Assembly: GCA_028820635.1 (NCBI GenBank)
Contig: JAPPIG010000019.1
Coordinates: forward strand, 1-64,000
From: Candidatus Poribacteria bacterium
GTDB taxonomy: Bacteria > Poribacteria > WGA-4E > WGA-3G
DNA: 64,000 nt
Reading direction: 5' to 3'
The notes below the pieces were generated by a model that did no database searches, was not told the DNA's origin, and was given only the letters and a program-made list of their open reading frames with translations. A program made the translations under genes and the position numbers. This document shows, one piece after another, positions 22,195 through 56,894 of this stretch (positions are counted from its first letter, which is position 1; each line of letters starts with the position of its first letter).

Positions 22195-24276
22195 ATGAAA
22201 AATAAAACGCATTTGATTTGCAAGAGCGATGCTGTAGATAGTAGGGACGTTACGACTTGGGCACTCCCTGAAGGTGCGATTGCGCGATTAGGGCGCGGCT
22301 GGGTGCCAGATATAGCGTTTTCTCCAGATGAACGTTATCTCGCAGTCGGTACTTGGATGGGACTTTGGGTGTATGACTTGGAAATCCTATCCCCTGTCGC
22401 ACTCTGGGAAACGGAACGGGGTATGGTTGGATGTGTCACATTTTCACCTAATGGAGAATGGATTGCCGTAAGTAATTCCGACAATATGTTAAAAGTATTG
22501 GATATCAAAAATGGTGCATGTTTTACAGAAGTAGAGACCAATGATCATATTTCAGGACTAACCTTTTCACTGGATAATCGTTATCTCGCTGCTGCCTATG
22601 CACGTTCTTCTACCGTTGAAATCTGGCATGCAAAAACTGGCGAACCGTTTGCTAAATTCACTGCAAACGTTGAGAAGGCTCGTTTTACCCGTCCTATCTG
22701 TTTTTCACCTGATACGCAACTGATAGCATCTTCGTGCATCATTAATACAACTCATAACACAGATGCAATAGTGGTCTGGGATATAGAAAGTGGGCAACAA
22801 ATCGCATTACTTATAGCACACACCAAAGAGATAACCACAATTTGCTTTTCACCTTGTGGACAGTTCCTCGCCTCTGGCGGTGAAGATGGCACAGTGTACG
22901 TCTGGGACGTTAACAATTGGCAACAAGTACAGTCATACACCGATTTTGGTGAGGTGTACCGCATTTTTCCATCCTATTCATCAGAGGGAATCCTCCATGC
23001 TGCGATTATGACTTATGAGGATATCGCTCCATCTACTATCTCTGTGTGTAACTTGGAAAGCGGAGAACAACTGTATACGCAACAAATTTCGTTAACTACC
23101 GAAGATTATTCCTATTTCAATTATTGGGGCAAGACTATCACCTTTTTAAACGGTTCCCAACTTGCTTATGAATGCAAACACAATTTTATCAACGTATGGA
23201 CGCTTTCTAAGCCAGACACGCGACAGATTCTCCATTCCCCTATTTCATATCCAATATCGGTCATGTTTTCTGAAGATGGAAAAACGTTAGCAGCTGAACA
23301 TCATCACGAAGGTGTTGTGTTATGGGATGTTGAAAGTAGACGTTCACAACCCACAATTAAAGATCCATCGGCAGGCAAAAATCAGTTTCTATATGCACCC
23401 GTCAATGGAAAATTTTACGTTGCTACCATCAACAGAAACAACGTTTCGCTCTGGTCAATTGACGAAGACAGAAGATTGGTTGCAGAAGGTATGCGGCATG
23501 ATTATAAAAGTATGTGTCCTCTATTAACACCTACTGGTAATCACCTCGTCTGTGCACTTGAGGACGGAACCTTGATCGTTTGGGACGTTCAAAATGGAAA
23601 GAAGTTCCGCGAGTTGACACACCCACTTTATGTAGATGAGGACGAGGATGATGAAGATAATCCGGATGAGTTTGAACAACTAAAACTCAGTCCTGATGGA
23701 CGTTTTCTGGCAAGTGAGTCGCGTTTTACACCTGTTCGACTATGGGATTTACAAACCGGCAAAGAGGTAGGTACATTTCCAAGCGATATTTACAGTATCA
23801 TAGGATTCTCTCCATGTGGCAGGTACCTGGCTTGTCTTGGGGAATATATCCAATTGTGGGACATCACCTCTGGTGAAATGTTCAAAACGTCTATAAAACA
23901 AGATTTGGTGGCAGACGAGTACGCTTTTTCACCGTGTGGACGATACCTTGCTGCAAGTATAGATGAAATTTTTCTTTGGGACATCGTCCGCGGTGAACTC
24001 CACATGCAGCTGCCATTACCACAGGGATGCCAAAAGATGTTTCCTTTAATATTTTCGACGTGTGGGAACTATTTTGCCGCAGGTGCATGGTGGCAACCTG
24101 GTATAAAGAAGGTCCCTATCTGTTTGTGGGAGGTCGTGAGTGGTAAACAGCTCGCAACTTTTTGGGGACATCCGACAGATGTTCAAGCGCTTACATTTTC
24201 TCCGGACAATAGACTTTTAGCCAGTGCGAGTTATGATGGTGTAATCTATCTTTGGGATCTGACGCCTTATCTATGA
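22195..24276 (+). CDS. WD40 repeat protein, free cytoplasmic form (array member 1)
   Basis: A 693-residue protein with no signal peptide or membrane helix. After about 20 residues it has the array's entry motif TWALPEGAIARLGRG, then about 15 WD40 units (GLWVYDL, VYVWDVN, VRLWDLQ, IYLWDLT and so on), enough for two seven-bladed propellers. Many blades read FSPCG rather than FSPDG. A strongly acidic insert, VDEDEDDEDNPDE, lies in the second half, at the same place as in the protein at 27091, its closest paralog in the window. Bacterial WD40 propellers usually serve as protein-binding platforms. The next gene, a sigma/WD40 fusion, starts 87 bases later. Confidence 0.88.
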   Translation: MKNKTHLICKSDAVDSRDVTTWALPEGAIARLGRGWVPDIAFSPDERYLAVGTWMGLWVYDLEILSPVALWETERGMVGCVTFSPNGEWIAVSNSDNMLKVLDIKNGACFTEVETNDHISGLTFSLDNRYLAAAYARSSTVEIWHAKTGEPFAKFTANVEKARFTRPICFSPDTQLIASSCIINTTHNTDAIVVWDIESGQQIALLIAHTKEITTICFSPCGQFLASGGEDGTVYVWDVNNWQQVQSYTDFGEVYRIFPSYSSEGILHAAIMTYEDIAPSTISVCNLESGEQLYTQQISLTTEDYSYFNYWGKTITFLNGSQLAYECKHNFINVWTLSKPDTRQILHSPISYPISVMFSEDGKTLAAEHHHEGVVLWDVESRRSQPTIKDPSAGKNQFLYAPVNGKFYVATINRNNVSLWSIDEDRRLVAEGMRHDYKSMCPLLTPTGNHLVCALEDGTLIVWDVQNGKKFRELTHPLYVDEDEDDEDNPDEFEQLKLSPDGRFLASESRFTPVRLWDLQTGKEVGTFPSDIYSIIGFSPCGRYLACLGEYIQLWDITSGEMFKTSIKQDLVADEYAFSPCGRYLAASIDEIFLWDIVRGELHMQLPLPQGCQKMFPLIFSTCGNYFAAGAWWQPGIKKVPICLWEVVSGKQLATFWGHPTDVQALTFSPDNRLLASASYDGVIYLWDLTPYL

Positions 24277-24301
24277 TTGTAAAAAAATGCAATTTTTATA
24301 T

Positions 24302-24343
24302 TTTTTAAACCTTTTTCCAAAAACCCCTCCTCTATACATTAAA
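24302..24343 (+). promoter_or_regulatory. Conserved upstream block B of the sigma/WD40 gene
   Basis: The block contains TTTTTAAACC, then a 19-base spacer after AAACC, then TCTATAC and ATTAAA. The gene at 50369 has the same block at 50308-50349 with identical spacing. AAACC resembles the AAC-type -35 of ECF promoters. It lies 20-60 bases before ATG 24364. Confidence 0.5.
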
Positions 24344-24363
24344 ACTGGCTCAGGAATTTGTTT

Positions 24364-27072
24364 ATGCGCAACGATTTTCTTGCTTTCAGTAACCTAACAG
24401 ATGAAGAACTGATTCAGCGCGTACAAGACAGGAATGAGGCGGCATTTGCTGAACTCATTTCTCGTTGGACGCCACGGATTAGGGGTATCATTATCTCCAA
24501 TTCGAGACAACGTCGAGACGCTGAAGAAATTCACACTGACATCTGGGTAGCTGTATGGCAAAACATCAGAGACCTCAGAAATGTGGATAGTTTTGGTGCA
24601 TGGCTGCATCGTATCGCTTACAACGCTTGCAAGCGATACTACACTTTAGCAAAGCAATCCCGCAGTGAAGTCCCGCATGAACAGTCTGTGTTAGTTGAAA
24701 ACATAGACCAACATGCTGCAGCGCGGTATCAAGAAGCACAATTGATTGCTGATGTAAAAGAAGTTGTCCATCATCTTCCACAGAAGGTACGGTCTGTAGC
24801 AGAATTGTTTTACTTAGAATCGTGGAGTATCAAAGAAATCTCGGAGGAGTTCAATCTCGCTGTTGGTACAGTAAAAACAAAATTAAGAGAGATCCGAACA
24901 CTCCTGCGTGAGGAATTTGATGTAGAACCTATAAGAGGAGAAGTTATGACTTTAAAAAATGTTGAATCACACAATCCAATTCAGATTGAGACAAATAAAA
25001 CCGAACCAAGCCGAAAACCTGCAGTGTTTAATGTTGTTACCAACGACCCTACAGGGCAAACTTGGGCACTACCAGAGGGTGCAATTGTCCGGTTTGGTAA
25101 AGGGAACGTAGAAGATGCCAAACTTTCCCCCGATGGAACCTATTTTGCTGTAGGCACTGGGATGGGGTTATGGTGGTATGATGTTTCTTCTATGTTACCT
25201 ATTTCGTTATGGGAAACAGAGCGAGGACTCATAAGTTCTTTTGATTTTTCACATGATGGCAAATGGATTGTCATCTATAATTCAGATGGTATTATTAAGG
25301 TTCTGGATGTTCAAAGTGGGTCGCTTGTCGTACAGATAGAGGATCAATATGCTGATAGAGATCTCACATGTTCATCAAATGGTAAATGGATTGCTATAGC
25401 AGGTGGGGATGGTGTTGTCAAGGTGTTAGATGTTCAAAGTGGCATGTGCATCGCGCAAATGGATCGAGGAAAACATGAGTGGAAGGCAAATGACATTAGC
25501 CAACTTGAATTTTCTCCGGATGGCGAACTACTTGCCGCGGTCGCAGGAAATCCCAAACTTTATTTAGAAAACGAGGATAACTATGATGATGAACTTTTGA
25601 ACCCTGGTACAGAAGGTGATCAAATTTATGTCTGGCACCCAGAAACGGGTGAAGTGATACTCAAGTTTGCCGGAAGAAATTTTACCTTTTCTTCGGACAG
25701 TCGCTTGTTGGCGGGAGCATGTCCTGACGAAACCTTGAACGAAGGCAAACGCGTTGACCGTTGGGTTTCAGTATGGGACGTAACATCAGCGGAACATATT
25801 GCACAATTTACAGAACATGACGATTGGGTAGATAATGTCGCTTTTTCACCGTGTGGACAATTCGTTGCATCAAGTGATGCGGTGCTACGTGTGTGGGATA
25901 TTGCAACAGGTTCAGAAAAAAAGGTTTATCCTAACTTTAGCAATCCGTTCTACACAAAAGATGGAAGATTATATGCTTTGGGATTTGTTAATTTTTCTAA
26001 TCCTATAGAAGTATGGGATATGGAAAATCGGGAAAAGTTATTTGAGATGACGATTGGCATGGGTTTATTTGATCTTGCCAGAAGCATAGCAATAGCATAT
26101 ACACAGCAATTGGCGAATACACCTTCTAATAAACGGACAGAAGCAAAAAACCCGGTGTTTTCAATAGTGCGTGAACATCGTTTCCCGTGGCCCGATCCGA
26201 AGGGTATTTGGGTGGATAACCAGACCTTAGTAAGTAAGACCCACGGGGAAGGAATATTGTTATGGGATATCGCCAAGAAACGGATGGGGGATTATTTATT
26301 GAAGAATGAATGGATCGGCTCTTATACCGTTTTGCCTGATGGCAGAATTCTTGCATCTTGTATAACAAAAGAAAGTAAAGTGTGGGATGCTAAAAAACCT
26401 GACAATCCCATTGCAAAATTCACTATAACTGAGGGACCGTTTCAATGGGCTCGGGATGCAGTGTTTGCCCCCACAGGTGATCGGATCGCTGTAGGAAGTA
26501 GATTGGGAACACTTTATGTGTGGAATTTTCAGCAACCTGAGAGGACTATTGCCCTGACCGGACATACAGATCATATATGGACACTCGCTTTTTCACCAGA
26601 TGGAAAAACGTTGGCCAGTAGTGCTGCCGATGAGACTACCCGCGTGTGGGATCTTGAATTGGGTGAAGAAATTGCTATACTGCCTATTGGTGAACAGCGT
26701 ATTTCGTGGGGATTAGTGTTCTCACCTTGCGGAAGATTCATTGTAGGAGGTATGGACAACGAAATCCGTTTTTGGTGTGCTGAGAAACTGACATTATTAC
26801 GTTCAATACCACAACCGGAGAGCAACAGGCGAACTTACGCGCTCGCTTTTTCGCCGTGTGGAAAGTATCTTGCATCGGGCACTTGGTGGCAGCAAGGAAT
26901 GGAGAAAATGGCTATCCGTTTATGGGATGTTGCGACAGATGAGAATATCCATACTTTTTGGGGACATAACTCAGATGTTCAATCGCTCAGCTTTTCACCG
27001 GATGGCACCCATTTGGCAAGTAGTGGTTTTGATTATACAATCCTGGTGTGGAACTTGAAACCTTATCTATAA
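24364..27072 (+). CDS. ECF sigma factor fused to double WD40 propeller (class B)
   Basis: A 902-residue protein. Residues 1-194 are an ECF sigma factor: region 2 (AAFAELISRWTPRIRGIIIS to FGAWLHRIAYNACKRYY) and region 4 (LPQKVRSVAELFYLESWSIK, then the helix-turn-helix EEFNLAVGTVKTKLREIR). Residues about 195-235 are a linker, then TWALPEGAIVRFGKG and 14 WD40 units. No membrane helix. I take ATG 24364 (AGGAA at 24352-24356) over the TTG six bases upstream. At codon 195 there is GAGGAG followed by ATG 24946, in frame, so the WD40 part may also be made alone. That part is very like the free protein at 52977. The fusion suggests that the propeller controls sigma activity. Confidence 0.9.
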   Translation: MRNDFLAFSNLTDEELIQRVQDRNEAAFAELISRWTPRIRGIIISNSRQRRDAEEIHTDIWVAVWQNIRDLRNVDSFGAWLHRIAYNACKRYYTLAKQSRSEVPHEQSVLVENIDQHAAARYQEAQLIADVKEVVHHLPQKVRSVAELFYLESWSIKEISEEFNLAVGTVKTKLREIRTLLREEFDVEPIRGEVMTLKNVESHNPIQIETNKTEPSRKPAVFNVVTNDPTGQTWALPEGAIVRFGKGNVEDAKLSPDGTYFAVGTGMGLWWYDVSSMLPISLWETERGLISSFDFSHDGKWIVIYNSDGIIKVLDVQSGSLVVQIEDQYADRDLTCSSNGKWIAIAGGDGVVKVLDVQSGMCIAQMDRGKHEWKANDISQLEFSPDGELLAAVAGNPKLYLENEDNYDDELLNPGTEGDQIYVWHPETGEVILKFAGRNFTFSSDSRLLAGACPDETLNEGKRVDRWVSVWDVTSAEHIAQFTEHDDWVDNVAFSPCGQFVASSDAVLRVWDIATGSEKKVYPNFSNPFYTKDGRLYALGFVNFSNPIEVWDMENREKLFEMTIGMGLFDLARSIAIAYTQQLANTPSNKRTEAKNPVFSIVREHRFPWPDPKGIWVDNQTLVSKTHGEGILLWDIAKKRMGDYLLKNEWIGSYTVLPDGRILASCITKESKVWDAKKPDNPIAKFTITEGPFQWARDAVFAPTGDRIAVGSRLGTLYVWNFQQPERTIALTGHTDHIWTLAFSPDGKTLASSAADETTRVWDLELGEEIAILPIGEQRISWGLVFSPCGRFIVGGMDNEIRFWCAEKLTLLRSIPQPESNRRTYALAFSPCGKYLASGTWWQQGMEKMAIRLWDVATDENIHTFWGHNSDVQSLSFSPDGTHLASSGFDYTILVWNLKPYL
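24934..24948 (+). promoter_or_regulatory. Internal Shine-Dalgarno and in-frame ATG at the sigma/WD40 junction
   Basis: AGAGGAG at 24934-24940 is followed by ATG at 24946-24948, in frame 194 codons after the sigma start. The same arrangement occurs at the same codon in the genes at 50369 and 55119. Confidence 0.6.
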
Positions 27073-27090
27073 AACTAAGGATATATCTTG

Positions 27091-29115
27091 ATGGACAACA
27101 TAAAATCGGTAATTCCGGCCCATGAAGGTGTCGGTGGAGATGACGTTACCACCTGGGCACTCCCTGAAGGTGCGATTGCGCGATTAGGGCGCGGAAGTGA
27201 ACCTGCAATGGCGTTCTCACCTGATGGGCAATCACTTGTCATTGGTACCTGCGTAGGACTCTGGTTATATGACCTCGCAACACTTTCCCCTATCGCACTT
27301 TGGAATGCAGAACAAGGGGTGGTCGAATCTGTCGCCTTTTCACCTAACGGAAAATGGATAGCCGCCAGTCATTCAGGTCGAATGCTTAAGGTTTGGGATG
27401 TCCAGAATGGCACGTTCTTGCTATCGGTAAAATTAGAGACTTTCGTAGATAGTGTGACCTTTTCCCATGACAATAGGTATATCGCTGTTGCCTATTCTGC
27501 TTATAGCAGCTCTCCTGTCGTTGAAGTTTGGCATGCGGAAACCGGTAAACCGTTTGCAAAATTCACTGTAGACACTGTAAGAGCGGGACACTACCATCCC
27601 ATTAGTTTCTCACACGATAATCGGCTGATTGCATCTACGTGTATGTCCGCTAATTCTGATGATGCAGGGTCAATATTAGTGTGGGATATGCAAAGCGGTA
27701 AACAAATTGCGTGTCTCTCAGCACATACCCGTTGGGTAACTACTCTTTGCTTTTCACCTTGTGGGAAGTTCCTCGCCTCTGGCGGTGAAGATGGGACAGT
27801 ATATTTATGGGATGTTAATACGTGGCAACAAGTGTATTGCTATACCGATTATGGTGATGTGTATCGCATCATTCCATCCTATACACCAGATGGAATATTA
27901 CGCGCAGCGATTGTAAATTATCACGAGACAGATGCGGCTACAATCTCTGTGTGTGATCTTAATAGTGCTGAAAAACTTTATACCGATCAATTTTGGGGTA
28001 ATACTGTGGGATTTGCCAGTGCGGCTAATTGGGGAAACGAAGTCTTGTTTTCAAACGGTTCGCAGCTTGCTTATGAATCCCGACATGAATTTATCAACGT
28101 ATGGACTCTTGATAATCCGATCAAGCGTCAATTTACACATTCACCTATCTCGTGGCCGAGATCAATTGTATTCTCCCAAGACGGTAAGACGTTAGCTTCT
28201 GAACACTATCAGGAAGGTGTTGTGTTATGGGATATTGAAAGCAAACGTTCGCGTCCAGCAGTTCAAGTGAAATCTGCTGGAAAAAATCAGTTTGTCTATA
28301 AAACCGTTAGTGGTAAACTCCATGTCACAAGCATCAAAAATGACACTGTTACACTATGGGAAGCTGATGGGGATGGAATACCACTTCTTGAAGGCACTGG
28401 ACGTGAATACTGGAGCGCATCTCCTGCATTAGCACCGCCAGGAACCCTATTCGCTTATGCTGGCGAGGATGGCACCGTACAAGTGTGGGATGTGCAGAAT
28501 GGAGAGAAACTTCATGAATTCACTCATCCTCTTCAGCCATCTAATGACGACGATGATGAGGATGATGGTGATTATGTTGATGAGTTGAAATTCAGTCAGG
28601 ATGGTAAATTACTCGTAAGTGAATCAAAATCTCATATTGTCAGACTGTGGGACATGGAACTTGGTGAAGAGATAAAACCATTACCAGGTGATGAAATCAA
28701 GGGAGTCCGATTTTGCAGGTGTGGAAGGTACCATGCTTACTTGGGAAAAGAAGAAAAGCAATATTGGGATATCGCCCAACGGGAGTACTGCGAGGATGCA
28801 ACCTGCTTGTGTAACCCGACATGGAGTGAAATAGAAAAAAGGTTGTCAATACCATCAGAATTCGAACATTTTGTGGGTCCATCAGTATATTCTTTGTGTG
28901 GACAATACATAGCAATTAGAACATCGCACAAGGATTTAAAGAGGTATCCTATTGATGTATGGGAAGTCGCGAGTGGTAAGCATCTTGTCACATTTAAGGG
29001 ACCCGCAGATGTGTTGGAAGAAATCGCCATCTCTCCAGACAACAAACTTTTAGCGAGTGCAAGTTATGATGGTACTGTCCTGCTTTGGGACCTAACACCC
29101 TATATAGACAATTAA
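27091..29115 (+). CDS. WD40 repeat protein, free cytoplasmic form (array member 3)
   Basis: A 674-residue protein closely similar to that at 22195 along its whole length: DDVTTWALPEGAIARLGRG at the start, then WD40 units with many FSPCG blades and an acidic insert (SNDDDDEDDGDYVDE) at the same point. One region near the C-terminus (about residues 545-615) has lost clear repeat signatures and holds a cluster of cysteines (REYCEDATCLCNPTW). No signal peptide. The start ATG at 27091 is 18 bases after the sigma/WD40 gene's stop, with TAAGGA upstream, so the three genes from 22195 are probably one operon: free propeller, sigma-propeller, free propeller. Confidence 0.88.
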   Translation: MDNIKSVIPAHEGVGGDDVTTWALPEGAIARLGRGSEPAMAFSPDGQSLVIGTCVGLWLYDLATLSPIALWNAEQGVVESVAFSPNGKWIAASHSGRMLKVWDVQNGTFLLSVKLETFVDSVTFSHDNRYIAVAYSAYSSSPVVEVWHAETGKPFAKFTVDTVRAGHYHPISFSHDNRLIASTCMSANSDDAGSILVWDMQSGKQIACLSAHTRWVTTLCFSPCGKFLASGGEDGTVYLWDVNTWQQVYCYTDYGDVYRIIPSYTPDGILRAAIVNYHETDAATISVCDLNSAEKLYTDQFWGNTVGFASAANWGNEVLFSNGSQLAYESRHEFINVWTLDNPIKRQFTHSPISWPRSIVFSQDGKTLASEHYQEGVVLWDIESKRSRPAVQVKSAGKNQFVYKTVSGKLHVTSIKNDTVTLWEADGDGIPLLEGTGREYWSASPALAPPGTLFAYAGEDGTVQVWDVQNGEKLHEFTHPLQPSNDDDDEDDGDYVDELKFSQDGKLLVSESKSHIVRLWDMELGEEIKPLPGDEIKGVRFCRCGRYHAYLGKEEKQYWDIAQREYCEDATCLCNPTWSEIEKRLSIPSEFEHFVGPSVYSLCGQYIAIRTSHKDLKRYPIDVWEVASGKHLVTFKGPADVLEEIAISPDNKLLASASYDGTVLLWDLTPYIDN

Positions 29116-31277: not shown

Positions 31278-31304
31278 ACAGTTTTGAGAATAAGGATAAC
31301 TTCA

Positions 31305-33287: not shown

Positions 33288-33298
33288 GGATTGACAAT

Positions 33299-35199: not shown

Positions 35200-35394
35200 T
35201 ATACCATTTCTAAATGATAATATAGCATTCTTTCGTAGGTCGGGTAGAGCAAAGCGAAACCCGGCAAATGCCAAAAAGCGCATTTGGCGTTGATTTGGAC
35301 ACGTATGATTTTAGATAAGGTTTCCATGTCGGGTTTCGCAAGCTCTACCCGACCTACAGACTATTATAGCAAATTGTCAATTAGAAACGGTAAT
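35200..35394. mobile_element. MITE-like element, second copy of the 21859 family
   Basis: A 195-bp element with degenerate inverted ends (TATACCATTTCTAAATGATA left; CAATTAGAAACGGTA right) and the internal words TAGGTCGGGTAGAGC, AAAAAGCGCATTTGGCGTTG, CGGGTTTCGC and CTCTACCCGACCTACA. About 90 internal bases are nearly identical to 21940-22070. It fills most of the 302-bp gap before the next secreted WD40 gene. Confidence 0.8.
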
Positions 35395-35418
35395 TACTAT
35401 AAAAGCGAGGAGAATGCA

Positions 35419-47595: not shown

Positions 47596-50142
47596 ATGGA
47601 AAGAGATGACATTGAACTAATTCAAAGTATACTGTCTGGTGACGAAGATGCTTTCAGCGATTTGTTCAGGAAATACCAAAAACGTATTCATGCCTTTGTA
47701 TGGCAAAAAATTGGTGATTACCATATCGCTGAAGAAATTACGCAAGATACTTTCCTTCAAGCACACAAAAAACTTGCCTCGTTGAAAAACCCAAGCAAGT
47801 TTGCTGGGTGGCTCTATGTTATCGCTGACCGACTTTGCACAGCATGGTTACGAAAGAAGAAACTGGCGATGCAATCGCTGGAAACCGTAAGTGTGGAGGC
47901 ACTCGAAAAAACTGCTTATGCCAATTATATTGCAGAACAGCGTGAAGAAACCTCTGCTGAGTATCATCGTGAAATAGTAGATGGTCTCTTGGAAATGCTG
48001 CCGGAGAGTGAACGCACGGTGATAATCCTCCACTACCTCGGAGAAATGAGTTGTGAAGCGATTGGAAAGTTTTTGAGTGTGTCTCCGAACACTGTCAAAA
48101 GTCGACTTCAACGTGGTCGAAATCGTTTACGAATTTCTGTTGACATCAAAACATTACCTGATATGTTAGACCAAATTAGAAATAGTACTTTTTCTGATAG
48201 GAACAAAAACCTTAGTTTACCAAAAGGATCTAAAACAATGGAAAACAACATAACACAAGATTCTACGCAATGGAACTTACCTGAAGATGCAAAAGCACGT
48301 CTCGGTAAAGGTAAGATACATGAATTACAGTATTCCCCCGATGGTTCAATTCTGGCAGTGGCAAGTAGTATCGGTATTTGGCTCTACGATATGAAAACCT
48401 ATAAAGAAATCTTTCTGTTTACAGAGCATCGGCATGAAGTTTCCAGTGTTGCATTCAGTCCGGATGGATATACCATAGCCAGTGGAAGTATGGACGGTAC
48501 AATTCTTTTATGGGATAGAAAAACAAGTTCCTATAAAAGAGTTATTGAGCCAATGGATAAGACCTTAAGCTCTTTTACAATTAGGGCACCAGGGCTGTCG
48601 TTCAGTCCAGATGGAAAAACCCTTGCGTGCGGATATCAAAATACTGTCCATATTTGTGATGCAATCACTGGAGAACTTAAGAATACAATCATAAAAGAAT
48701 CCTCTGGAATCATCAAAAACTTGGCATTCAGTCCAGATGGTGAAACTATTTATTGTAGCAATATATACGGTGAAATCTCGCTCTGGAATGTGCTAACCGG
48801 AAAACACAAGCAAACAATTCAAGAACCAACTAATTATGAACATAGTATTGCGTTCAATCCTATTGGGAATACATTTGCTGTCAGCAATGTTATTGTGGAT
48901 CAAGACTGTAGTATTAGCGTCAATGTTTTAAATACAGGTGAACCCAAGTTTAAACTCACTGAACACTCAGGGGCTGTTTACTATTTAGCGTTTAATCCGA
49001 ATGGTGATACCCTTGCGAGTTCTTCATACGGAGAAAATAAAATTCGTCTCTGGAACGCACATACTGGTGAAGAAAAACTAACACTCTCAGGACACAAGTC
49101 AGATTTTTATAGCTTAGCATTTAGTCCGGATGGCAAAACGGTTGTAAGTGGAAGTGAAGATGGTGTCATCCGTTTCTGGGATACAAACACAGGTGATCAA
49201 GAATATAATACATTCACTGAACATAATGGATTTATTGAGGATTTTGCATTCACTTCAAATGGAAAAACTGTCACAAGTGCTTATGCCTATGGTACAATCC
49301 GGGTATGGGATACTAACACAGGACAACTCATCAAAACGGACAATGAGTTTAGGGATCCGATGTTAAAGGGTGAAATACAAAATCTTAACTGTATCCCTGA
49401 TGGAAAAATACTTGCATGGGGAGATGGTGGCGAATCGGGGGAGTATTGTATGCACCTATGGGATGCAAACACAGGTGAGCGCAAAATGTTACCGGCGAAA
49501 TATGAATGGAATAACCATAGTTTGAAACTCAGTCCGGTTGGCAATATGCTTGCAATCGCATTAGATGACAATCTGCTCAGATTATGCGATATGTTCACAG
49601 GTGAAGAGAAGTTTGTCCTATCCAGTCATAGCAAAGATATTTTTGCTATAGCATTTAGTCCGGATAGTAAATCTGTCGCTATCACAAGTAGTGAAGATAA
49701 TACTATTCCTGTATGGGATACAGATACTGGTGAGATAAAGAATTTACTTGATTTAGATAGTGCTTTGCGAAATGATATTGTAGATTGGCGGATAGATAGT
49801 AGTTGGTGCGGACTCGCGTTCAGTCCAGATGGTCAAACTCTGGCAATTGGCGGTGGTGAAATCATTCTATTGTGGGATATTGGTACAGCGCAAACCAAGA
49901 TGAGGATCACCAAACCTACGCATCGCGTGTTTGATTTAGCCTTTAGTCCAGATGGCAAAACCCTTGCAAGCGGTGGTTTTGAGAGTAACATCAACTTATG
50001 GGATGCACAAACAGGTGAACACAAGAAAACATTGACAGGTCATACAGCTTGGGTGAGAAGTGTTGCTTTCAGTCCAGATGGGAAATTTCTCGGCAGTAGA
50101 AGTGACGACGGTACTGTCCTCATCTGGAAGGTAGATCCCTAA
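47596..50142 (+). CDS. ECF sigma factor fused to double WD40 propeller, no membrane helix (class A)
   Basis: An 848-residue paralog of the two preceding fusions. The sigma part is clear (DTFLQAHKKLASLKNPSKFA; LPESERTVIILHYLGEMSCE; SVSPNTVKSRLQRGRNRL), but the segment holding the membrane helix is missing: after residue 180 a 35-residue linker leads to ENNITQDSTQWNLPEDAKAR and 14 WD40 units. Its WD40 part is closest to that of 40853 (for example IILLWDI followed by RITKPTHRVFDLAFSPDGKT). This form should be entirely cytoplasmic. AAAAGGA at 48222-48228 and ATG 48238 form an internal start at codon 215. GGAGG precedes ATG 47596. Confidence 0.9.
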   Translation: MERDDIELIQSILSGDEDAFSDLFRKYQKRIHAFVWQKIGDYHIAEEITQDTFLQAHKKLASLKNPSKFAGWLYVIADRLCTAWLRKKKLAMQSLETVSVEALEKTAYANYIAEQREETSAEYHREIVDGLLEMLPESERTVIILHYLGEMSCEAIGKFLSVSPNTVKSRLQRGRNRLRISVDIKTLPDMLDQIRNSTFSDRNKNLSLPKGSKTMENNITQDSTQWNLPEDAKARLGKGKIHELQYSPDGSILAVASSIGIWLYDMKTYKEIFLFTEHRHEVSSVAFSPDGYTIASGSMDGTILLWDRKTSSYKRVIEPMDKTLSSFTIRAPGLSFSPDGKTLACGYQNTVHICDAITGELKNTIIKESSGIIKNLAFSPDGETIYCSNIYGEISLWNVLTGKHKQTIQEPTNYEHSIAFNPIGNTFAVSNVIVDQDCSISVNVLNTGEPKFKLTEHSGAVYYLAFNPNGDTLASSSYGENKIRLWNAHTGEEKLTLSGHKSDFYSLAFSPDGKTVVSGSEDGVIRFWDTNTGDQEYNTFTEHNGFIEDFAFTSNGKTVTSAYAYGTIRVWDTNTGQLIKTDNEFRDPMLKGEIQNLNCIPDGKILAWGDGGESGEYCMHLWDANTGERKMLPAKYEWNNHSLKLSPVGNMLAIALDDNLLRLCDMFTGEEKFVLSSHSKDIFAIAFSPDSKSVAITSSEDNTIPVWDTDTGEIKNLLDLDSALRNDIVDWRIDSSWCGLAFSPDGQTLAIGGGEIILLWDIGTAQTKMRITKPTHRVFDLAFSPDGKTLASGGFESNINLWDAQTGEHKKTLTGHTAWVRSVAFSPDGKFLGSRSDDGTVLIWKVDP
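48222..48240 (+). promoter_or_regulatory. Internal Shine-Dalgarno and in-frame ATG before the WD40 domain
   Basis: AAAAGGA at 48222-48228, nine bases, ATG at 48238-48240, in frame. It would yield a 634-residue protein beginning MENNITQDSTQW. Confidence 0.55.
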
Positions 50143-50368: not shown

Positions 50369-52957
50369 ATGTACTACGATTCAGAATCCATCAGAAACTT
50401 AAAAGATGAAGAACTCATACGATTAGTACAAAACCGGAATGAGTCTGCCTTTTCAGAACTCATATCCCGTTACACGCCAAGAATTTGGCGTGTAATCATT
50501 GCGAATTCGAGGCAACGTCTTGATGCTGAGGAAATTCTCACAGATACTTGGGTGGCAGTTTGGGATAACATCAGCACACTCAAGAAGATGGAGAGCTTCG
50601 GACCGTGGTTGCAGAAAATTGCTTATAATACTTGTAACAGGTACTACGCTTCTTCAAAACGTTCAAGGCGAGAAATCCCACACACTGATGCGGAGCTGGC
50701 AGAGCAGATTGACCAAGAAGCAGCACCGCGCTTCCGGGAATATGAGCTCCGTGCTGATGCAAGAGAAGCGGTCCAACAACTTCCACAGCGGGTACGTCCC
50801 GTTGCTGAATTGTATTATTTGGAATCGTGGAGTATGAAAGAGATTGCCGAAGAGCTTAACTTACCAATCGGTACTGTTAAAACAAAACTTAGAGAAACAC
50901 GAGCACTTCTACGCAAAGAATTCGGTGTGGAATCTGAAAGAGGAGGAATTATGTCTTCAGAATTTGTTCAAACTCAAAATCAAAACGATGAAAAAACATT
51001 AGACTGGAACGGTATCAAGCCAGCGATTGTAAAGTCAACTGTAGATTCAGAACTAACATCATGGGCATTACCGGATGATGCGTTGTTTAGATTCGGACGC
51101 GGATATATTTACACTATGGCACTGTCTCCTGATGGGAAACATCTTGTCTTTGGAACCCCTATTGGGTTGTGGTGGTATGAAACTGACACGCTGTCGCCTA
51201 TTACGTTGTGGCACACCGACTGCGAAAATATCTCTGCAATTACTTTTTCCACATCAGGTGAGTGGATAGCAACAGGTCATGAAAACGGAAGGGTCAAGAT
51301 ATGGGATGTCCAGCAGGGGAAATGCATTAAACATTGGGAACGAAAGGCACATCGGCTTCAAAAAAGGATTAATCAACTCATTTTTTCTCCAGACGGTAAA
51401 TTCTTAGCTGCAAATGGAGTTAATGATTATATTGTTGATGTCTGGAACGCAGAGACAGGTAAGCAACTTGCAAGATTTGGTGACCCGGAACTCAGGTTTC
51501 ATGTATGTATGAAAAAACAGCCACTTGCTTTTTCGCAAGATAATCAGATGCTTGCATGTGCAAGTCCGCCAGATGACGCAGAGCGGTTGAAGGGTGGTTA
51601 TTGGACGATTGCACCTGAGAGAGACATTATTTCCGTTTGGGGTATTGGTAGCGGAGAACGTATAGCAGAACTTACAGAATGCCCGAATTTTTTACAGGCT
51701 CTCACCTTTTCTCCATGTGGAAATAATATTGCTGCTACCTATGAAGAAACTGAAGTTTCCGCCCTAACTGTATGGAATACTGAAAATTGGCAGGTGCAAA
51801 GCACAGAGCAGCGTTTTGGTAATAATCGGTTGATACCAGCATATTCAACAGAAGGAACATTACGGGTTGCAGCCGTTTCTTACGTTGATGCTACGATCTG
51901 GGATGCAACTTCACATGAAAAACTTGAAACTTACAACGTATCACAAGAGAATGAAATTCTAAAGTGCAGCTTTATCGGATCGCATTTCGCACTTGCTACA
52001 ACACATGAATTAAATGTATGGACTCTTGACAAACCGCATCAGCAAAAAGTTACCTATAATTCGCATCCTGATAATCCAATCTCGCTCATATTTTCACCTG
52101 ACAAGAGAACTCTTGTTGCTGAGTATCCATTTCCTGAGGGAACTTTTCGATGTTGGGATTTCATAACCCGCTCACAAAAACCTCACGTTATTAAACTCCC
52201 TGGTGAAAGACATTGTCTTTACGCATCAAGCGATGAAAAACTCCACACTACCAGTGTTGATGGAAGTTTTATCAAAATAAGGGAATTTGGAATAGAGACT
52301 CCTATTGCGCAATGTGAAATCAAAGAACGACCCCGGTATAAAGCCGTGGCGTATTCACACGAAGCCCAACTATTGGCTTATGGGGATTCTAAGATAAACC
52401 TATTTGTGTGGGATATTGCACGGGAGGAACTGCTTCACACTTTCACAGGACATGAGACTAATGTTGCGTTCATGGCGTTCAGCTCGGATGGCGATTACCT
52501 TGCGAGCGTTCCAGAGTGCGGCAACTATCGGTTGTGGGATGTTAAATCTGGTAAGGAAGTGCATCCGTTTAAGAGTTATAAAGTAGAGCATACTGCTTTT
52601 TCTCCGTGTGGAAACGTTATTGCTGGTGAAGCTGAAAGAGAATTCATTTTATGGGATCTCAAAGATAGCAAACTGAGACTAACAATACCGAAGCCAGACG
52701 AATACAAATTTTGGTGGCAGGGAGGCATTGCATTTTCGCCAAACGGTCTTTATCTTGCTACTGGGTTGTATCGGAGAGATGGGATGGTTAACATTCCTAT
52801 CATGGTGTGGAACACAATGACAGGTGAGAATATTGCTACGTTTTCTGGGCACCTTACTGATATTATCTCGCTTGCGTTTTCACAAGATGGAACACTCTTG
52901 GCAAGTAGTAGTGGTGATGGCACTATCTTGGTGTGGGATATGAAACCTTATCTTTAG
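50369..52957 (+). CDS. ECF sigma factor fused to WD40 propeller (class B)
   Basis: An 862-residue protein. Residues 1-194 are an ECF sigma factor of the same subtype as that at 24364 (AAF replaced by SAF in ESAFSELISRYTPRIWRVI; FGPWLQKIAYNTCNRYY; EELNLPIGTVKTKLRETR). A 45-residue linker leads to SWALPDDALFRFGRG and diverged WD40 units, many with FSPCG. No membrane helix. At codon 195, AGGAGG at 50941-50946 and ATG 50951 give an almost ideal internal start. AGGAA precedes ATG 50369. The free WD40 protein at 52977 follows after 19 bases. Confidence 0.9.
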   Translation: MYYDSESIRNLKDEELIRLVQNRNESAFSELISRYTPRIWRVIIANSRQRLDAEEILTDTWVAVWDNISTLKKMESFGPWLQKIAYNTCNRYYASSKRSRREIPHTDAELAEQIDQEAAPRFREYELRADAREAVQQLPQRVRPVAELYYLESWSMKEIAEELNLPIGTVKTKLRETRALLRKEFGVESERGGIMSSEFVQTQNQNDEKTLDWNGIKPAIVKSTVDSELTSWALPDDALFRFGRGYIYTMALSPDGKHLVFGTPIGLWWYETDTLSPITLWHTDCENISAITFSTSGEWIATGHENGRVKIWDVQQGKCIKHWERKAHRLQKRINQLIFSPDGKFLAANGVNDYIVDVWNAETGKQLARFGDPELRFHVCMKKQPLAFSQDNQMLACASPPDDAERLKGGYWTIAPERDIISVWGIGSGERIAELTECPNFLQALTFSPCGNNIAATYEETEVSALTVWNTENWQVQSTEQRFGNNRLIPAYSTEGTLRVAAVSYVDATIWDATSHEKLETYNVSQENEILKCSFIGSHFALATTHELNVWTLDKPHQQKVTYNSHPDNPISLIFSPDKRTLVAEYPFPEGTFRCWDFITRSQKPHVIKLPGERHCLYASSDEKLHTTSVDGSFIKIREFGIETPIAQCEIKERPRYKAVAYSHEAQLLAYGDSKINLFVWDIAREELLHTFTGHETNVAFMAFSSDGDYLASVPECGNYRLWDVKSGKEVHPFKSYKVEHTAFSPCGNVIAGEAEREFILWDLKDSKLRLTIPKPDEYKFWWQGGIAFSPNGLYLATGLYRRDGMVNIPIMVWNTMTGENIATFSGHLTDIISLAFSQDGTLLASSSGDGTILVWDMKPYL
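50941..50953 (+). promoter_or_regulatory. Internal AGGAGG and in-frame ATG at the sigma/WD40 junction
   Basis: AGGAGG at 50941-50946, four bases, ATG at 50951-50953, in frame 194 codons after the start. The DNA around it (AGGAGGAATTATGTCTTCAG) is repeated exactly at 55691-55710. Confidence 0.65.
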
Positions 52958-52976
52958 GATACAAGGAAACAATATT

Positions 52977-55064
52977 ATGCAAAACCAAAAACCGGCAGCG
53001 TTAAATGTTATTGCGAGTGACCCTATCGGGAATACATGGGCATTACCTAAAGACGCAATTGTAAGGTTTGGAAAAGGACTCATGAATGAGTGGGACATCA
53101 AACTTTCTCCAGATGGCACATATTTCGCTGTGGCAACTGGGATGGGGCTGTGGTGGTATGACGTCTCTTCAATGTTGCCGATTTCGTTATGGGAAACTGA
53201 ACGCGGATTAATTAATTCTCTTGACTTTTCCCATGATGGCAAGTGGATTGTTACTTATAACTCAGATGGTATCCTTAAGGTAATGGATGTCCAAAGCGGG
53301 TCGCTTGTCAGACAGATTGAGGATCAATATGCCTCTGGAGGTCTCGCCTGCTCATCAAACGGAAAATGGATTGCAGTTGCTGACTCAAACGGCATCATCA
53401 AGGTATTAGATATTCATAGGGACGTGGATATAGCACAGATGGATAGGGGAGAACACAAATGGCAGTCAAACGATATTTCCCAACTTGAATTTTCTCCGGA
53501 TGGTAAACTGCTTGCCGCAAATGCTGGAAATCCCCCACTCTATTCAAATGACAAGGAGAACTACGACGAACTTTTGAACCCTGATACAGAAAGAGATCAA
53601 ATTTATGTTTGGTACCCAGAAACTGGTGAAGCATTGATCAAATTTGCTGGTTATAGATTGGCTTTTTCGCCAGACAGCCGCTTGTTAGCCGCATCCTGTC
53701 CTGACGAAACACCTCATGATACTAAACGCGTTGACCGTTGTGTCTCTGTGTGGGATGTAACTTCAGGTGAACGTATTGCACACTTTTCAGGACATACCGA
53801 TTGGATAGATACTGTTGCTATTTCACCTTGTAACCAATTCGTCGCTTCAAGTGACACGACAACACTACGGGTATGGGATATTGCAACAGGTTCTCAAAAA
53901 ATGGTTTACCCTGACCTACACGATCCTTTCTACACAAAGGAGGGAGAACTGTTTGCTTTAGCATCTCCCAGTTCGCCCAACCCTACAGAAGTGTGGAATG
54001 TAGAAACGAATGAAAAAATACTTAAGATTTCTGCAGGTATCGGCGGCATCGGTTTTGCTGAGTCTTTAGCTACTGCTTACACCGATGGAAAACTGCAGCA
54101 ATTAAATGAAAAAATGTCCAGAAAGCAGTCTGATGATAATGTACCTGTATACTCAATACTGCGTGAACATCGTTTCCCATGGCCCGATCCGAAAGGAATT
54201 TGGGTGGATAATCAGACCTTGGCAAGTAAAACCCACGGGGAAGGGGTATTGTTATGGGATGTCGCCAAGAAACGGATGGGGGATAATTTATTAAAGGATG
54301 AATGGGTTGGTTCTTTCACTGTTTTACCTGATGGCAGAATTCTCGCATCTTGTATTTCGGAGGAAAGTAAAGTGTGGGATGCCAAACAACCTGACAATCC
54401 CATTGCAGAATTCATTACACCTGAGGGACCGTCGCAATGGGCGCGGGATGCAGTGTTTGCCCCCACAGGTGATCGGATCGCTGTAGGAAGTAGATTAGGA
54501 ACACTTTATGTGTGGAATTTTGAGCAGCTTGCAAATCCGGTACAACTTGTGGGGCATACAGACCATACTTGGGCATTGGCGTTTTCGCCAGATGGGAAAC
54601 GACTGGTGAGCGGAGCAGCAGACGAAACTGCTCGAGTGTGGGATGTTGAATTAGGTGAAGAAATTGCCATATTGCCTATTGGTGAACCGTGTATTCCAAT
54701 GGGATTTGCTTTTTCACCGTGTGGTGACCTGATTGTAGGAGGTTTGAATAACGAAATCCGTCTTTGGTGTACTGCGCAACTGACGACGTTACGCACGATC
54801 CCGCAGCCAGAGAATAACAGACGTCCGTATGCTCTTGCATTTTCACCGTGTGGCAATTATCTTGCATCGGGGACTTGGTGGGAGAAGGGCATGCAAAAAA
54901 TGGCTATTCGTTTATGGGACGTCGCTACAAGTGAGAATATCCATACCTTCTGGGGACATAACTCGGACGTGCAATCACTTGCATTTTCGCCGAATGGTAC
55001 TATGTTAGCGAGTGGTAGTTTTGATGGCACAATTCTTCTTTGGGATATGACACCTTATCTGTAG
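52977..55064 (+). CDS. WD40 repeat protein, free form (array member 14)
   Basis: A 695-residue protein without signal peptide, starting MQNQKPAALNVIASDPIGNT and then WALPKDAIVRFGKG, with about 14 WD40 units. It is very similar over its whole length to the WD40 part of the sigma fusion at 24364 (shared REHRFPWPDPKGIWVDNQTL, VFAPTGDRIAVGSRLGTLYV, FWGHNSDVQSL), so it is in effect that gene without its sigma domain. AAGGAAAC lies before the ATG. It is 19 bases from the upstream sigma/WD40 gene and 54 from the next sigma gene, so the three probably form an operon. Confidence 0.9.
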   Translation: MQNQKPAALNVIASDPIGNTWALPKDAIVRFGKGLMNEWDIKLSPDGTYFAVATGMGLWWYDVSSMLPISLWETERGLINSLDFSHDGKWIVTYNSDGILKVMDVQSGSLVRQIEDQYASGGLACSSNGKWIAVADSNGIIKVLDIHRDVDIAQMDRGEHKWQSNDISQLEFSPDGKLLAANAGNPPLYSNDKENYDELLNPDTERDQIYVWYPETGEALIKFAGYRLAFSPDSRLLAASCPDETPHDTKRVDRCVSVWDVTSGERIAHFSGHTDWIDTVAISPCNQFVASSDTTTLRVWDIATGSQKMVYPDLHDPFYTKEGELFALASPSSPNPTEVWNVETNEKILKISAGIGGIGFAESLATAYTDGKLQQLNEKMSRKQSDDNVPVYSILREHRFPWPDPKGIWVDNQTLASKTHGEGVLLWDVAKKRMGDNLLKDEWVGSFTVLPDGRILASCISEESKVWDAKQPDNPIAEFITPEGPSQWARDAVFAPTGDRIAVGSRLGTLYVWNFEQLANPVQLVGHTDHTWALAFSPDGKRLVSGAADETARVWDVELGEEIAILPIGEPCIPMGFAFSPCGDLIVGGLNNEIRLWCTAQLTTLRTIPQPENNRRPYALAFSPCGNYLASGTWWEKGMQKMAIRLWDVATSENIHTFWGHNSDVQSLAFSPNGTMLASGSFDGTILLWDMTPYL

Positions 55065-55118
55065 ACTGTTCATTTTACAGTCAAATATGCAAAATTAACC
55101 AGAATAGAGAATTTGTAT

Positions 55119-56039
55119 ATGTACTACGATTTAGAATTGATAAAAAGCCTGAATGATGAAAAACTTATACAATTAGTACAAAACCGTAATGAAGCAGCTT
55201 TCTCAGAACTCATGTCCCGTTACACGCCAAGAATTTGGCGTGTAATCATCGCAAATTCGCGGCAACGTCTTGATGCTGAAGAAATCCTCACAGACATCTG
55301 GGTGGCAGTATGGGACAACATTAGCGGGCTCAAGGAAGTAGATAGTTTTGGACCGTGGTTGCAGAAAATTGCTTATAACGCTTGTAACAGGTATTACGCC
55401 ACCTCTAAACGCTCAAGGCGTGAAATCCCATATACTGATGCGGAGTTAGTTGAGCAGATTGACCAAGAGGCATCCACACGTTTCCGAGAAAACATGCTTC
55501 GTACTGAGGCAAGAGAAGCGGTTCAACATCTTCCTATGCGGGTACGTCCCGTTGCAGTATTGTACTATTTAGAATCGTGGAGCATGAAGGAGATTGCTAA
55601 AGAACTTGACCTGCCGATAGGCACCGTCAAGACAAAACTTAGAGAAACAAGACTACTCCTGCGAAAGGAGTTTGGTGTAGAATCTAAAAGAGGAGGAATT
55701 ATGTCTTCAGAATTTGTTCAATCCCAAAATCAAAACGATAAGAATTCAGATTATAAAATAATAGCCGCAGCTGTGAGCGGTGATTGTGAGGCAACTGAAT
55801 TGATTAAGGACATGGTCAAGCCCTGGATCCACAATTATATTGAGCGTTATTACAACCTGGGCAATGACCAAGAGATGAAAGCACTTGAGTTGCAGGCATT
55901 CGAAAAGGTGATGAATAAGTTAAACAAATTCTTGTTTGTATGCCCTTTCCATAGATGGGTGCGGGTCTTAACTAAACACACATTGATAGATCATTATCGG
56001 GAGGAACATTGGCGAAAAAAACGTGCTAAATCAACCTAA
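55119..56039 (+). CDS. ECF sigma factor with an added sigma-2-like domain
   Basis: A 306-residue protein. Residues 1-194 are a class B ECF sigma factor, very close to that at 50369. Residues 195-207 (MSSEFVQSQNQND) are the same linker as at 50369, but the WD40 domain is replaced by about 100 residues that resemble a second sigma region 2: SDYKIIAAAVSGDCEATELI, ALELQAFEKVMNKLNKFLF, FHRWVRVLTKHTLIDHYREE, HWRKKRAKS. No second region 4 follows. An internal AGGAGG and ATG 55701 at codon 195 could produce the 112-residue second domain alone. I use ATG 55119 rather than the TTG six bases earlier, by comparison with 50369. Confidence 0.85.
   Translation: MYYDLELIKSLNDEKLIQLVQNRNEAAFSELMSRYTPRIWRVIIANSRQRLDAEEILTDIWVAVWDNISGLKEVDSFGPWLQKIAYNACNRYYATSKRSRREIPYTDAELVEQIDQEASTRFRENMLRTEAREAVQHLPMRVRPVAVLYYLESWSMKEIAKELDLPIGTVKTKLRETRLLLRKEFGVESKRGGIMSSEFVQSQNQNDKNSDYKIIAAAVSGDCEATELIKDMVKPWIHNYIERYYNLGNDQEMKALELQAFEKVMNKLNKFLFVCPFHRWVRVLTKHTLIDHYREEHWRKKRAKST
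55691..55703 (+). promoter_or_regulatory. Internal AGGAGG and in-frame ATG before the second sigma-2-like domain
   Basis: AGGAGG at 55691-55696, ATG at 55701-55703, in frame 194 codons after ATG 55119, identical in placement to the genes at 24364 and 50369. Confidence 0.6.
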
Positions 56040-56240
56040 TACCGTTCTTAATAGCGACTTCACATTAACAAAAACGCGTTAGCTCGCAATTCATTCTGTC
56101 TTAGAAATTCGCCGGTAGGCGCGCCTTATGAGCGTACCGAGCGACGATGTCCTGTTAATTGAAAAATTTGCTGTATTTAGATTTTACAGGTTTACCTTAA
56201 ATTTTGCTATCCTTAGAAGGAAACAACAACTCTAAATTAT

Positions 56241-56894
56241 ATGAGAAAAAATATGGAAAATACTTTTACAACTCAAAGAGAACTTAGCCTGCTTGATGAG
56301 AAGGAGCTAATTAAACGTACACAGAAGGGAGAGTCTGAAGCGTTTAACCCGTTAGTTAACAAATATCGGCAGAAAATCTACAATTTGATTTATCAGCGAG
56401 TACACAACCGTGAAACAGCAGAAGATATTTGCCAGGAGGTTTTCCTGAAAGCCTGGAAAGCCCTGCCAAACTTCAAGGGACAATCTGCTTTTTACAGCTG
56501 GCTCTATAAAATCGCAATCAATTGTAGTACTGACTTCCTCCGCAAACAAAACAAGCAATCTGTTGTAAGTTGGGAAGAGTTACCCTCAAGCGCAGAAGAA
56601 ATTCTTCAAACCACTCAAAAACACCTTTCGCTAAATCAAATCCTTGAAAAAAAGGAATTTGAGTACATAGTTGACGAGGCTGTACGGCAACTGCCAACCG
56701 GTCAACGTCGTGTCTTTTATTTGCGTTATGCGGAGGAACTCCCTATAAAGGATATTGCATCTCGCTTGAATAGATCTGAAGGGACTATTAAAACCCACCT
56801 ACATCATGCACATCGAAAATTACGAGATATGCTGCGTCCTTACCTCCAAAACGAACCTATTGGATGGCTCAGAACATCTTTAACTGGATTATGA
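56241..56894 (+). CDS. ECF-type RNA polymerase sigma factor
   Basis: A 217-residue RpoE-like sigma factor of ordinary layout: region 2 (EAFNPLVNKYRQKIYNLIYQ, AEDICQEVFLKAWKALPNFK, FYSWLYKIAINCSTDFLRKQ) and region 4 (LPTGQRRVFYLRYAEELPIK, then the helix-turn-helix RLNRSEGTIKTHLHHAHRKL). It has no WD40 part and is not close to the fused sigma factors. No anti-sigma gene lies beside it; the next gene is a sugar kinase. An ATG at 56253 is an alternative start; neither has a close ribosome binding site. Confidence 0.93.
   Translation: MRKNMENTFTTQRELSLLDEKELIKRTQKGESEAFNPLVNKYRQKIYNLIYQRVHNRETAEDICQEVFLKAWKALPNFKGQSAFYSWLYKIAINCSTDFLRKQNKQSVVSWEELPSSAEEILQTTQKHLSLNQILEKKEFEYIVDEAVRQLPTGQRRVFYLRYAEELPIKDIASRLNRSEGTIKTHLHHAHRKLRDMLRPYLQNEPIGWLRTSLTGL

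Follow-up and report, generated by a model that had tools for sequence, protein, structure and literature searches.

The window analysed here is a stretch of 64,000 nucleotides (positions 1 to 64,000 of contig JAPPIG010000019.1, assembly GCA_028820635.1) from a Candidatus Poribacteria bacterium. Between positions 22195 and 56894 it carries an array in which every named gene lies on the plus strand. ORF translations and Pfam Sigma70_r2 matches confirmed the gene count of the first-pass annotation, namely, 14 WD40 and seven ECF sigma ORFs, with five sigma factors fused to WD40 propellers. ORFs are named below by their first coordinate.

Gene content of the array

All seven sigma ORFs matched Sigma70_r2 above the curated cut-off, in keeping with ECF factors, which have sigma2 and sigma4 regions and no other sigma regions. 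The SigW and RpoE chains aligned near end to end with the sigma parts of 50369 and 44699. Array ORFs of 600–900 aa with Pfam E-values down to 1e-160 are not chance reading frames. The sigma parts belong to two lineages, type A (24358, 50369 and 55113) and type B (40850, 44699 and 47596). The features of the array are as follows.

22195–24276 (+): free WD40 propeller without a signal peptide; type B-fused relative in genome G044, 88% over 676 aa
24358–27072 (+): in-frame fusion of type A ECF sigma and WD40 propeller, 904 aa; likely start ATG 24364
24934–24948 (+): internal Shine–Dalgarno (SD) stretch and in-frame ATG (24946–24948) at the sigma/propeller border of 24358; anti-SD duplex −9.1 kcal/mol
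27088–29115 (+): free WD40 propeller; tree sister is the type B-fused L210:1051
29385–31277 (+): WD40 propeller with a signal peptide
31284–33287 (+): WD40 propeller with a signal peptide, likely start ATG 31305; tree sister is the type A-fused propeller L204:9536
33260–35116 (+): free WD40 propeller without a signal peptide
35284–37314 (+): WD40 propeller, signal peptide at an internal Met
37397–39412 (+): free WD40 propeller on a long tree branch
39492–40508 (+): short free WD40 protein, 338 aa
40850–43621 (+): type B ECF sigma, membrane helix and WD40 propeller, 923 aa
41510–41566 (+): membrane helix of 40850, aa 221–239; first codon TTG behind an SD-like stretch (−10.3)
43856–44293 (+): orphan, 145 aa, without a Pfam family; few relatives have homologs
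44699–47425 (+): type B ECF sigma, membrane helix and WD40 double propeller, 908 aa
45356–45412 (+): membrane helix of 44699, aa 220–238; first codon TTG behind an SD-like stretch (−10.8)
47596–50142 (+): helix-free fusion of type B ECF sigma and WD40, 848 aa; the in-frame ATG at aa 215 is weak (−5.4)
50369–52957 (+): fusion of type A ECF sigma and WD40, 862 aa
50940–50953 (+): internal SD (GAGGAGG) and in-frame ATG (50951–50953) of 50369; −12.0 kcal/mol
52977–55064 (+): free WD40 propeller, 74% relative of the fused 24358 propeller
55113–56039 (+): type A ECF sigma and second sigma-2-like (HTH_16) domain; 88% relative L039/L088
55690–55703 (+): internal SD (GAGGAGG) and in-frame ATG (55701–55703) of 55113; −12.0 kcal/mol, same site in L016
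56241–56894 (+): plain ECF sigma, only distantly related to types A and B

The sigma gene that had been described as carrying a second sigma-2-like stretch is 55113, in which Pfam reads this stretch as HTH_16; the plain ECF gene and the small orphan of the same description are 56241 and 43856. ECF sigma factors with C-terminal propellers do adjoin free and secreted propellers, as was claimed, and the proposed survey of related genomes revealed similar mixtures of fused, free and secreted forms in several relatives. The claim that no anti-sigma gene is present holds for the matches listed in a Pfam scan of nine array ORFs, which included no anti-sigma family (for the six WD40 ORFs among them, of the 14 in the array, within the best 25 families). 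Two features of the list, the membrane helix in 40850 and 44699 and the in-frame second start of the type A fusions, were absent from the first-pass annotation.

WD40 repeats are not peculiar to the array: at least 150 WD40 repeat matches are spread across many contigs of the same genome, and WD40 was present in just 10 of 48 long ECF ORFs (by motif count, over sampled own-genome loci). An assembly artefact was ruled out, the same kind of fusion being present in the one-contig genomes G045 and G081.

A conserved candidate internal start in type A ORFs

Each of the three type A ORFs in the window contains an SD stretch and an in-frame ATG at the sigma border. Across the genome itself and its relatives, an ATG lay within 28 aa of the sigma end in 104 of the 109 type A ORFs that could be placed. 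The SD duplex at the border averaged −8.8, compared with −5.9 for synonymous reshuffles, and in 103 of 104 cases was stronger than the mean of that ORF's shuffles; nine of 118 type A ORFs, having no border match, were omitted from this analysis. The per-ORF synonymous p-values had medians of 0.04–0.22 by partner class, so that the signal lies in the aggregate. The best border ATG reached −8 or lower at 87 of the 109 loci with a border ATG (the three window ORFs counting as one locus; 90 of 131 border ATGs counted singly), compared with only 4 of 831 other internal in-frame ATGs. Codon choice at the border SD was strongly biased, both for Arg (AGR in 100 of 106 codons, compared with 599 of 2145 elsewhere in sigma) and for Gly (GGR in 119 of 125, compared with 226 of 576). 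A border ATG is present in 111 of 118 type A ORFs, and in 108 of these the border site was stronger than any candidate sigma start; the other seven (five stand-alone sigmas, L188 and L194) have no such ATG.

These counts are not independent, because the ORFs are related and several fusions derive from common ancestors. After thinning to 75% identity, the ATG was found in 23 of 23 cluster representatives, 17 of them at −8 or lower; L188 and L194, both type A fusions, fall in clusters represented by other members. No 16S gene was found in the metagenome-assembled genome itself, and the anti-SD was therefore sought in relatives, where all four one-contig genomes searched carried the 16S tail pattern containing it. 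Type A ORFs thus hold a conserved ribosome-binding site and an in-frame start within the reading frame, and we infer that this start is used in the cell.

Genes with in-frame internal translation starts produce, from one ORF, two proteins with a common C terminus. The present case differs in that the ORFs are sigma–partner fusions with several kinds of partner, found across a bacterial family, and the second product is a prediction. A literature search for internal starts, also in ECF genes, and for sigma–FtsZ fusions found no reports.

Fused, free and membrane-anchored propellers

The propeller tree of 77 rows needs 19 state changes between type A-fused, type B-fused, free and secreted forms (minimum 3), and the nearest relatives often come from another genome. 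The tree leaves out seven WD40 ORFs in which no propeller start was recognised (several free relatives of 52977 among them), as well as WD40 ORFs below 600 aa, such as 39492. A near-identical ribosome-binding site and ATG serve as the sole start of L207:6607, a free propeller for which no sigma was found in the 900 bases upstream; they also lie in frame within the fusions of four relatives. At L215, a sigma remnant is followed by an intact free propeller. These observations indicate that propellers switch between fused and free forms. The earlier interpretation stands as regards C-terminal propellers with free and secreted partners, but the tree and the two sigma lineages contradict a single family grown by tandem duplication.

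Among the WD40 fusions of the window, a membrane helix follows the sigma part in 40850 and 44699, but not in 24358, 47596 or 50369. From the predicted topology, the propellers of 40850 and 44699 should lie outside the cytoplasm. A strong inner ATG was found in five of six type B–WD40 fusions without a helix and in one of 13 with a helix, the exceptions being 47596 (helix-free, weak inner ATG of −5.4) and L076 (helix and strong inner ATG); the sigma4 pattern used for this count missed L071:2848, a type B-like, helix-free WD40 fusion with a strong ATG (−8.7). In 40850, 44699 and three of seven helix-bearing relatives examined, the helix opens with a TTG that is preceded by a strong SD-like stretch, which limits the contrast to ATGs at the propeller border. 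An internal start general to type B was set aside, because the KEE codons are themselves SD-like: in 17 of 43 own-genome type B ORFs, not including 40850, 44699 and 47596, a KKEE-like stretch with an SD of −8 or lower precedes an ATG, GTG or TTG. In AlphaFold models, confidence was low for the sigma part and its placement, too low for reading sigma–propeller contacts. A Foldseek search with the 44699 model returned WD40 propeller structures at the head of its best 50 matches.

Interpretation and relation to known ECF systems

We propose, with a probability of about 0.5, that the type A ORFs 24358, 50369 and, with another partner, 55113 are two-start genes in which the propeller regulates sigma, and that the sigma of helix-bearing type B fusions is freed by proteolysis. 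Translation from the upstream start, whose ribosome site is weaker, would yield the full-length ECF sigma together with its cytoplasmic propeller, while the strong SD and ATG at the border would yield a free propeller, probably in excess. As the regulator, the propeller would hold or position sigma until a ligand or partner protein binds to it, and the separately started propeller would compete for the same ligand or partner, thereby setting a threshold. The propeller of 40850 and 44699 would lie outside, its border lacks a strong inner ATG, and the sigma is probably released by proteolysis. The anatomy of the fusions, the conserved border SD and ATG with their codon bias, and the exchange between fused and free propellers were observed directly; use of the inner start, the topology of the propellers, the gating, its direction and the proteolysis are what we infer.

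A less likely explanation, though one that carries some weight, is that the internal SD and ATG are the leftover start of a formerly separate propeller gene, the sigma stop having been lost, so that a single long protein is made, in which the propeller simply extends sigma as a sensor, the role proposed for ECF57. Relatives do have stand-alone type A-like sigmas (approximately 50% identical) that end at the border: in L041, L042, L043, L045 and the fragment L046, EFGVESE is followed by TGA, and L044 stops earlier. A strong inner ATG is missing at the propeller border of most helix-bearing type B fusions, which also agrees with a leftover. Such a start should decay, however, and its retention in every 75%-identity representative, with strong codon bias and across WD40, FtsZ and other partners, argues against this explanation.

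It appears improbable that sigma works without propeller control, the partner being passive or having a separate function on the same message. Elsewhere, type A sigmas are joined to FtsZ, FtsZ–DnaE or a second sigma-like domain, a diversity in which one common gating mechanism is hard to see; against this, excerpts of PMC8999054 describe the C-terminal extensions of known ECFs as regulatory, and many relatives keep the fused forms. This comparison of type A sigmas and partners covers a sampled part of the matches listed in relatives and omits L046, three duplicate rows and L087, which is the copy from the window itself. The many non-WD40 partners of the same sigma types had gone unmentioned in the first-pass annotation. 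The FtsZ and DnaE fusions were ruled out as the cell's sole copies, since the genome has further matches that cover the whole or near-whole profile length, one to the FtsZ family and two to DnaE.

WD40-extended ECFs are, as had been stated, known from Planctomycetes: excerpts of PMC8999054 describe WD40-like C-terminal extensions in ECF57, with regulation via protein interaction proposed, and ECFs with WD40 repeats are also mentioned in an excerpt of PMC8567305. It is very unlikely that the array fusions are ordinary members of this group, which they resemble in carrying C-terminal WD40 repeats on an ECF sigma, because their host is from Poribacteria, they fall into two sigma lineages and some have a helix. 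Two conserved cysteines link sigma2 and sigma4 in ECF57; here the picture is mixed, with a single cysteine in each type A sigma part in the window and, by a crude motif, sigma2 and sigma4 cysteines in 24 of 40 type B-like ORFs. The internal in-frame start and the neighbouring free and secreted propellers are further differences. The helix-bearing 40850 and 44699 resemble membrane-tethered ECFs (ECF243 IutY, ECF48, ECF52 and ECF53; regulated proteolysis activates the ECF243/ECF52-like kind) in that a single protein combines sigma, membrane helix and an additional domain, but have a propeller in place of the known domains; no anti-sigma family was found, at E up to 0.001, in the full Pfam lists of four helix-bearing homologs (L068, L072, L075:6057 and L082).

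The two-start reading can be extended, more tentatively, to a Poribacteria ECF module with a terminal ribosome start that may act as a plug-in cap. If set in frame ahead of a WD40 propeller, an FtsZ-like GTPase, FtsZ–DnaE or a second sigma domain, it would yield two products, the sigma–partner fusion and the free partner, as a self-contained pair of sigma and regulator whose ratio is set by the two ribosome sites of one ORF. Caps could be gained or lost while the partner persists via its inner start.

If the two-start reading is true, one reading frame would supply the regulator both attached to a sigma factor and on its own, fixing the ratio of the two products; no description of such ratio-setting for ECF factors was found in the literature searched. 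Annotation would overlook a second product of many Poribacteria genes, and transcription control would be tied to WD40 proteins and to FtsZ and DNA polymerase paralogs. Because propellers are swapped between fused and free forms among relatives, control in cis and in trans would be directly comparable.

Gene content of the array and partners of its sigma factors

The array agreed with the first-pass annotation, comprising 14 WD40 ORFs, among them five ECF sigma fusions, together with 55113 (ORFs are named by start coordinate), which carries a second sigma-2-like domain, the plain ECF gene 56241 and a 145-aa orphan. Sequence reading and a hydrophobic-stretch score placed signal peptides on three free WD40 proteins (29385, 31284 and 35284). 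The AlphaFold models of 44699 and 50369, the latter of modest confidence (mean pLDDT 66.6), each have 56 strands of at least three residues beyond the sigma part, a count that fits two seven-bladed propellers as a predicted blade number. A PAP2 gene at 21232 adjoins the array, and a PAP2-like N terminus is present on ORFs in the fetched loci L205, L210, L212 and L218. A large LRR protein (14372–16438), a cohesin–dockerin protein (17576–18931) and an LVIVD protein with a Por secretion tail (62029–63921) also lie near the array. The orphan (43856–44293) has clear homologues in 4 of 83 other Poribacteria genomes searched (G044, G041, G043 and G035) and a weak fifth in G049; it adjoins sigma–WD40 genes in the window and in G044, and none was found beside its homologue in the short flanks seen for G041, G043 and G035.

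With the sigma parts of 50369 and 44699 as queries, both type A (24358, 50369 and 55113) and type B (40850, 44699 and 47596) aligned nearly end to end with solved ECF sigma factors. Genome-wide, Sigma70_r2 gave 80 matches, 79 above cut-off; 67 distinct ECF ORFs were retained from the fetched own-genome loci, 48 of them longer than 350 aa. By motif count, 10 of these 48 contain WD40 and 21 repeated Asp-box motifs, and both Asp-box proteins scanned (L068 and L072) gave Sortilin/BNR-type Pfam matches. L072 and L073 (C49:320701–337507 and C125:63888–80694), with equal sigma match scores and spacing on two contigs, are probably one stretch present twice in the MAG. Two further type A partners were identified by Pfam:

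L069, 13919–15139, minus strand: type A sigma with FtsZ GTPase domain, 406 aa
L052, 353–4660, minus strand: type A sigma with FtsZ and DNA polymerase III alpha (PHP, NTPase, finger, HHH), 1435 aa

FtsZ-type sigma fusions recur across many relatives; besides the fusions, a further FtsZ-family match and two more DnaE matches are present in the own genome. Type B-like sigma factors are joined to an AhpC/redoxin domain in L053 and an M61 peptidase in L079 (both Pfam), and to a stretch without Pfam match in L075.

WD40-like C-terminal extensions are described for ECF57, with a planctomycete example, in PMC8999054, and ECF sigma factors with WD40 repeats are mentioned in a planctomycete proteome study (PMC8567305). 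WD40 abundance in Poribacteria is reported in PMC3909097, where the word 'sigma' is absent from the main text. Our literature search, lying mostly outside subscription journals, found no report of ECF–WD40 in Poribacteria, of sigma–FtsZ fusions or of inner starts in ECF genes.

Candidate inner starts at the sigma–partner border

Each type A ORF of the window carries an in-frame Shine–Dalgarno (SD) sequence and ATG at the end of its sigma part (energies against the anti-SD):

ATG 24946, plus strand: inner start of 24358, −9.1 kcal/mol
ATG 50951, plus strand: inner start of 50369, −12.0 kcal/mol
ATG 55701, plus strand: inner start of 55113, −12.0 kcal/mol

The best SD scores at the sigma starts of these ORFs are −4.3, −4.2 and −2.9, respectively. 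The pattern GGATCACCTCCTTT, which we take to be the usual 16S 3′ end with the anti-SD, was present in all four one-contig relatives searched.

Conservation was analysed in 109 relatives' loci (29 + 80, beyond those of the window), selected from a longer match listing, which with own-genome loci and seven further related loci gave 118 distinct type A ORFs. By motif, these divide into 43 WD40, 34 FtsZ, 6 FtsZ with DnaE and 35 'other', an impure class in which several are visibly FtsZ-like or WD40. Of 109 ORFs whose border the script located, 104 have an ATG no more than 28 aa from the sigma end; the other five are three stand-alone sigmas stopping at the border and the fusions L188 and L194. The border SD averages −8.8 versus −5.9 in synonymous reshuffles. 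Strong sites (≤−8) occur at 87/109 borders by locus (90/131 border ATGs counted singly), at 4/831 in-frame ATGs elsewhere inside these ORFs and, for comparison, at 10/39 gene starts in the window. Codon choice follows the SD: AGR encodes Arg in 100/106 cases within the border SD versus 599/2145 in the remainder of the sigma part, and GGR encodes Gly in 119/125 versus 226/576. In 108 of 111 ORFs, no candidate sigma start is as strong as the border site. After thinning to 75% identity, all 23 fused cluster representatives retain the ATG (17 at ≤−8), as do all eight at 65% (six at ≤−8), L188 and L194 having been absorbed into clusters represented by other ORFs.

Among type B–WD40 fusions, the propeller border has a strong inner ATG in 5/6 without a membrane helix, the five being mutually related, versus 1/13 with one; 47596, whose ATG is weak although it lacks a helix, and L076, with both a helix and a strong ATG, are the exceptions. 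The helix lies about 30 residues past sigma4 in 40850 and 44699 (residues 227–244 in the AlphaFold model of 44699). A start behind the helix would be of no use to a propeller that needs the helix for export. Counting against a simple reading of the contrast, the first helix codon of 40850 (41510, −10.3) and of 44699 (45356, −10.8) is a TTG preceded by a strong SD-like stretch, an arrangement shared by three of the seven helix-bearing relatives inspected; if used, this TTG would yield a helix–propeller product without sigma. The topology of helix-bearing type B-like proteins is only moderately supported, because just 18 of the 28 with a helix (among 40 ORFs) are more positive on the sigma side. 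Separately, an inner start reading KGDIIM or KGEISM (−8.7 kcal/mol) is present in all three of L071 2848–5424, L071 7398–8642 and L023 1435–2706, type B-like ORFs of which one carries WD40 and the remaining two carry different domains.

Spread, origin and proposed role of the fusions

Of the 56 genomes from genera g1 and g3 in the window's family, 55 (all but G076) have type A sigma matches with E <1e-66; the best values are 1.6e-47 and 4.3e-20 in the two genomes of its third genus and 6.2e-28 outside the family. Within stretches chosen around type A matches, type A fusions adjoin free propellers in seven genomes (G044, G037, G041, G043, G045, G039 and G034), with secreted propellers, as labelled by propeller-tree scoring, in four (G044, G043, G039 and G034); in G030 and G074 the type A fusion stands alone, with no WD40 neighbours in the stretch seen. 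Type B–WD40 fusions share the stretch in five of the seven, not in G041, and G034 has only sigma B-like pieces. In G071 and G081, free or secreted propellers accompany a type A fusion, and type B is absent from the surveyed stretch. L211 of G044 retains three helix-bearing type B fusions, a fourth that is cut, a relative of the orphan, and the double sigma.

A quick tree of 77 propellers (fused A, fused B, free or secreted), with SH-aLRT support and no bootstrap, required 19 state changes (minimum, 3; shuffle mean, 41.8). Secreted 31284 clusters with a type A-fused propeller, free 22195 matches a type B-fused propeller of G044 at 88% identity over 676 aa, and fused 24358 and free 52977 share 74% identity. 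Other Poribacteria have stand-alone type A-like sigmas at about 50% identity, which terminate with EFGVESE and TGA (L041, L042, L043, L045 and the fragment L046), L044 stopping earlier; at this border the fused sigmas instead continue into the SD. The free propeller L207:6607 of G041 has an RBS and ATG nearly identical to the inner sites of fused ORFs in G037, G043, G044 and G045, and the 900 bases upstream of it yielded no sigma. Among 23 free propellers searched for a sigma remnant, the sole positive was in G039, where the remnant precedes an intact free propeller by about 120 bases; it spans 25 aa at 64% identity and has stop codons around it in each of the three frames. Together, the L207:6607 start and the G039 remnant suggest that the inner start can act as the propeller's only start.

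The obvious role of the propeller would be protein or ligand binding. In 40850 and 44699 the propeller would lie outside and the sigma would probably be freed by proteolysis, the closest precedent being IutY, for which proteolytic release is reported in PMC8999054. For fusions with an inner start, the full-length protein is most likely a sigma factor that its partner would control, and the inner start would supply the free partner.
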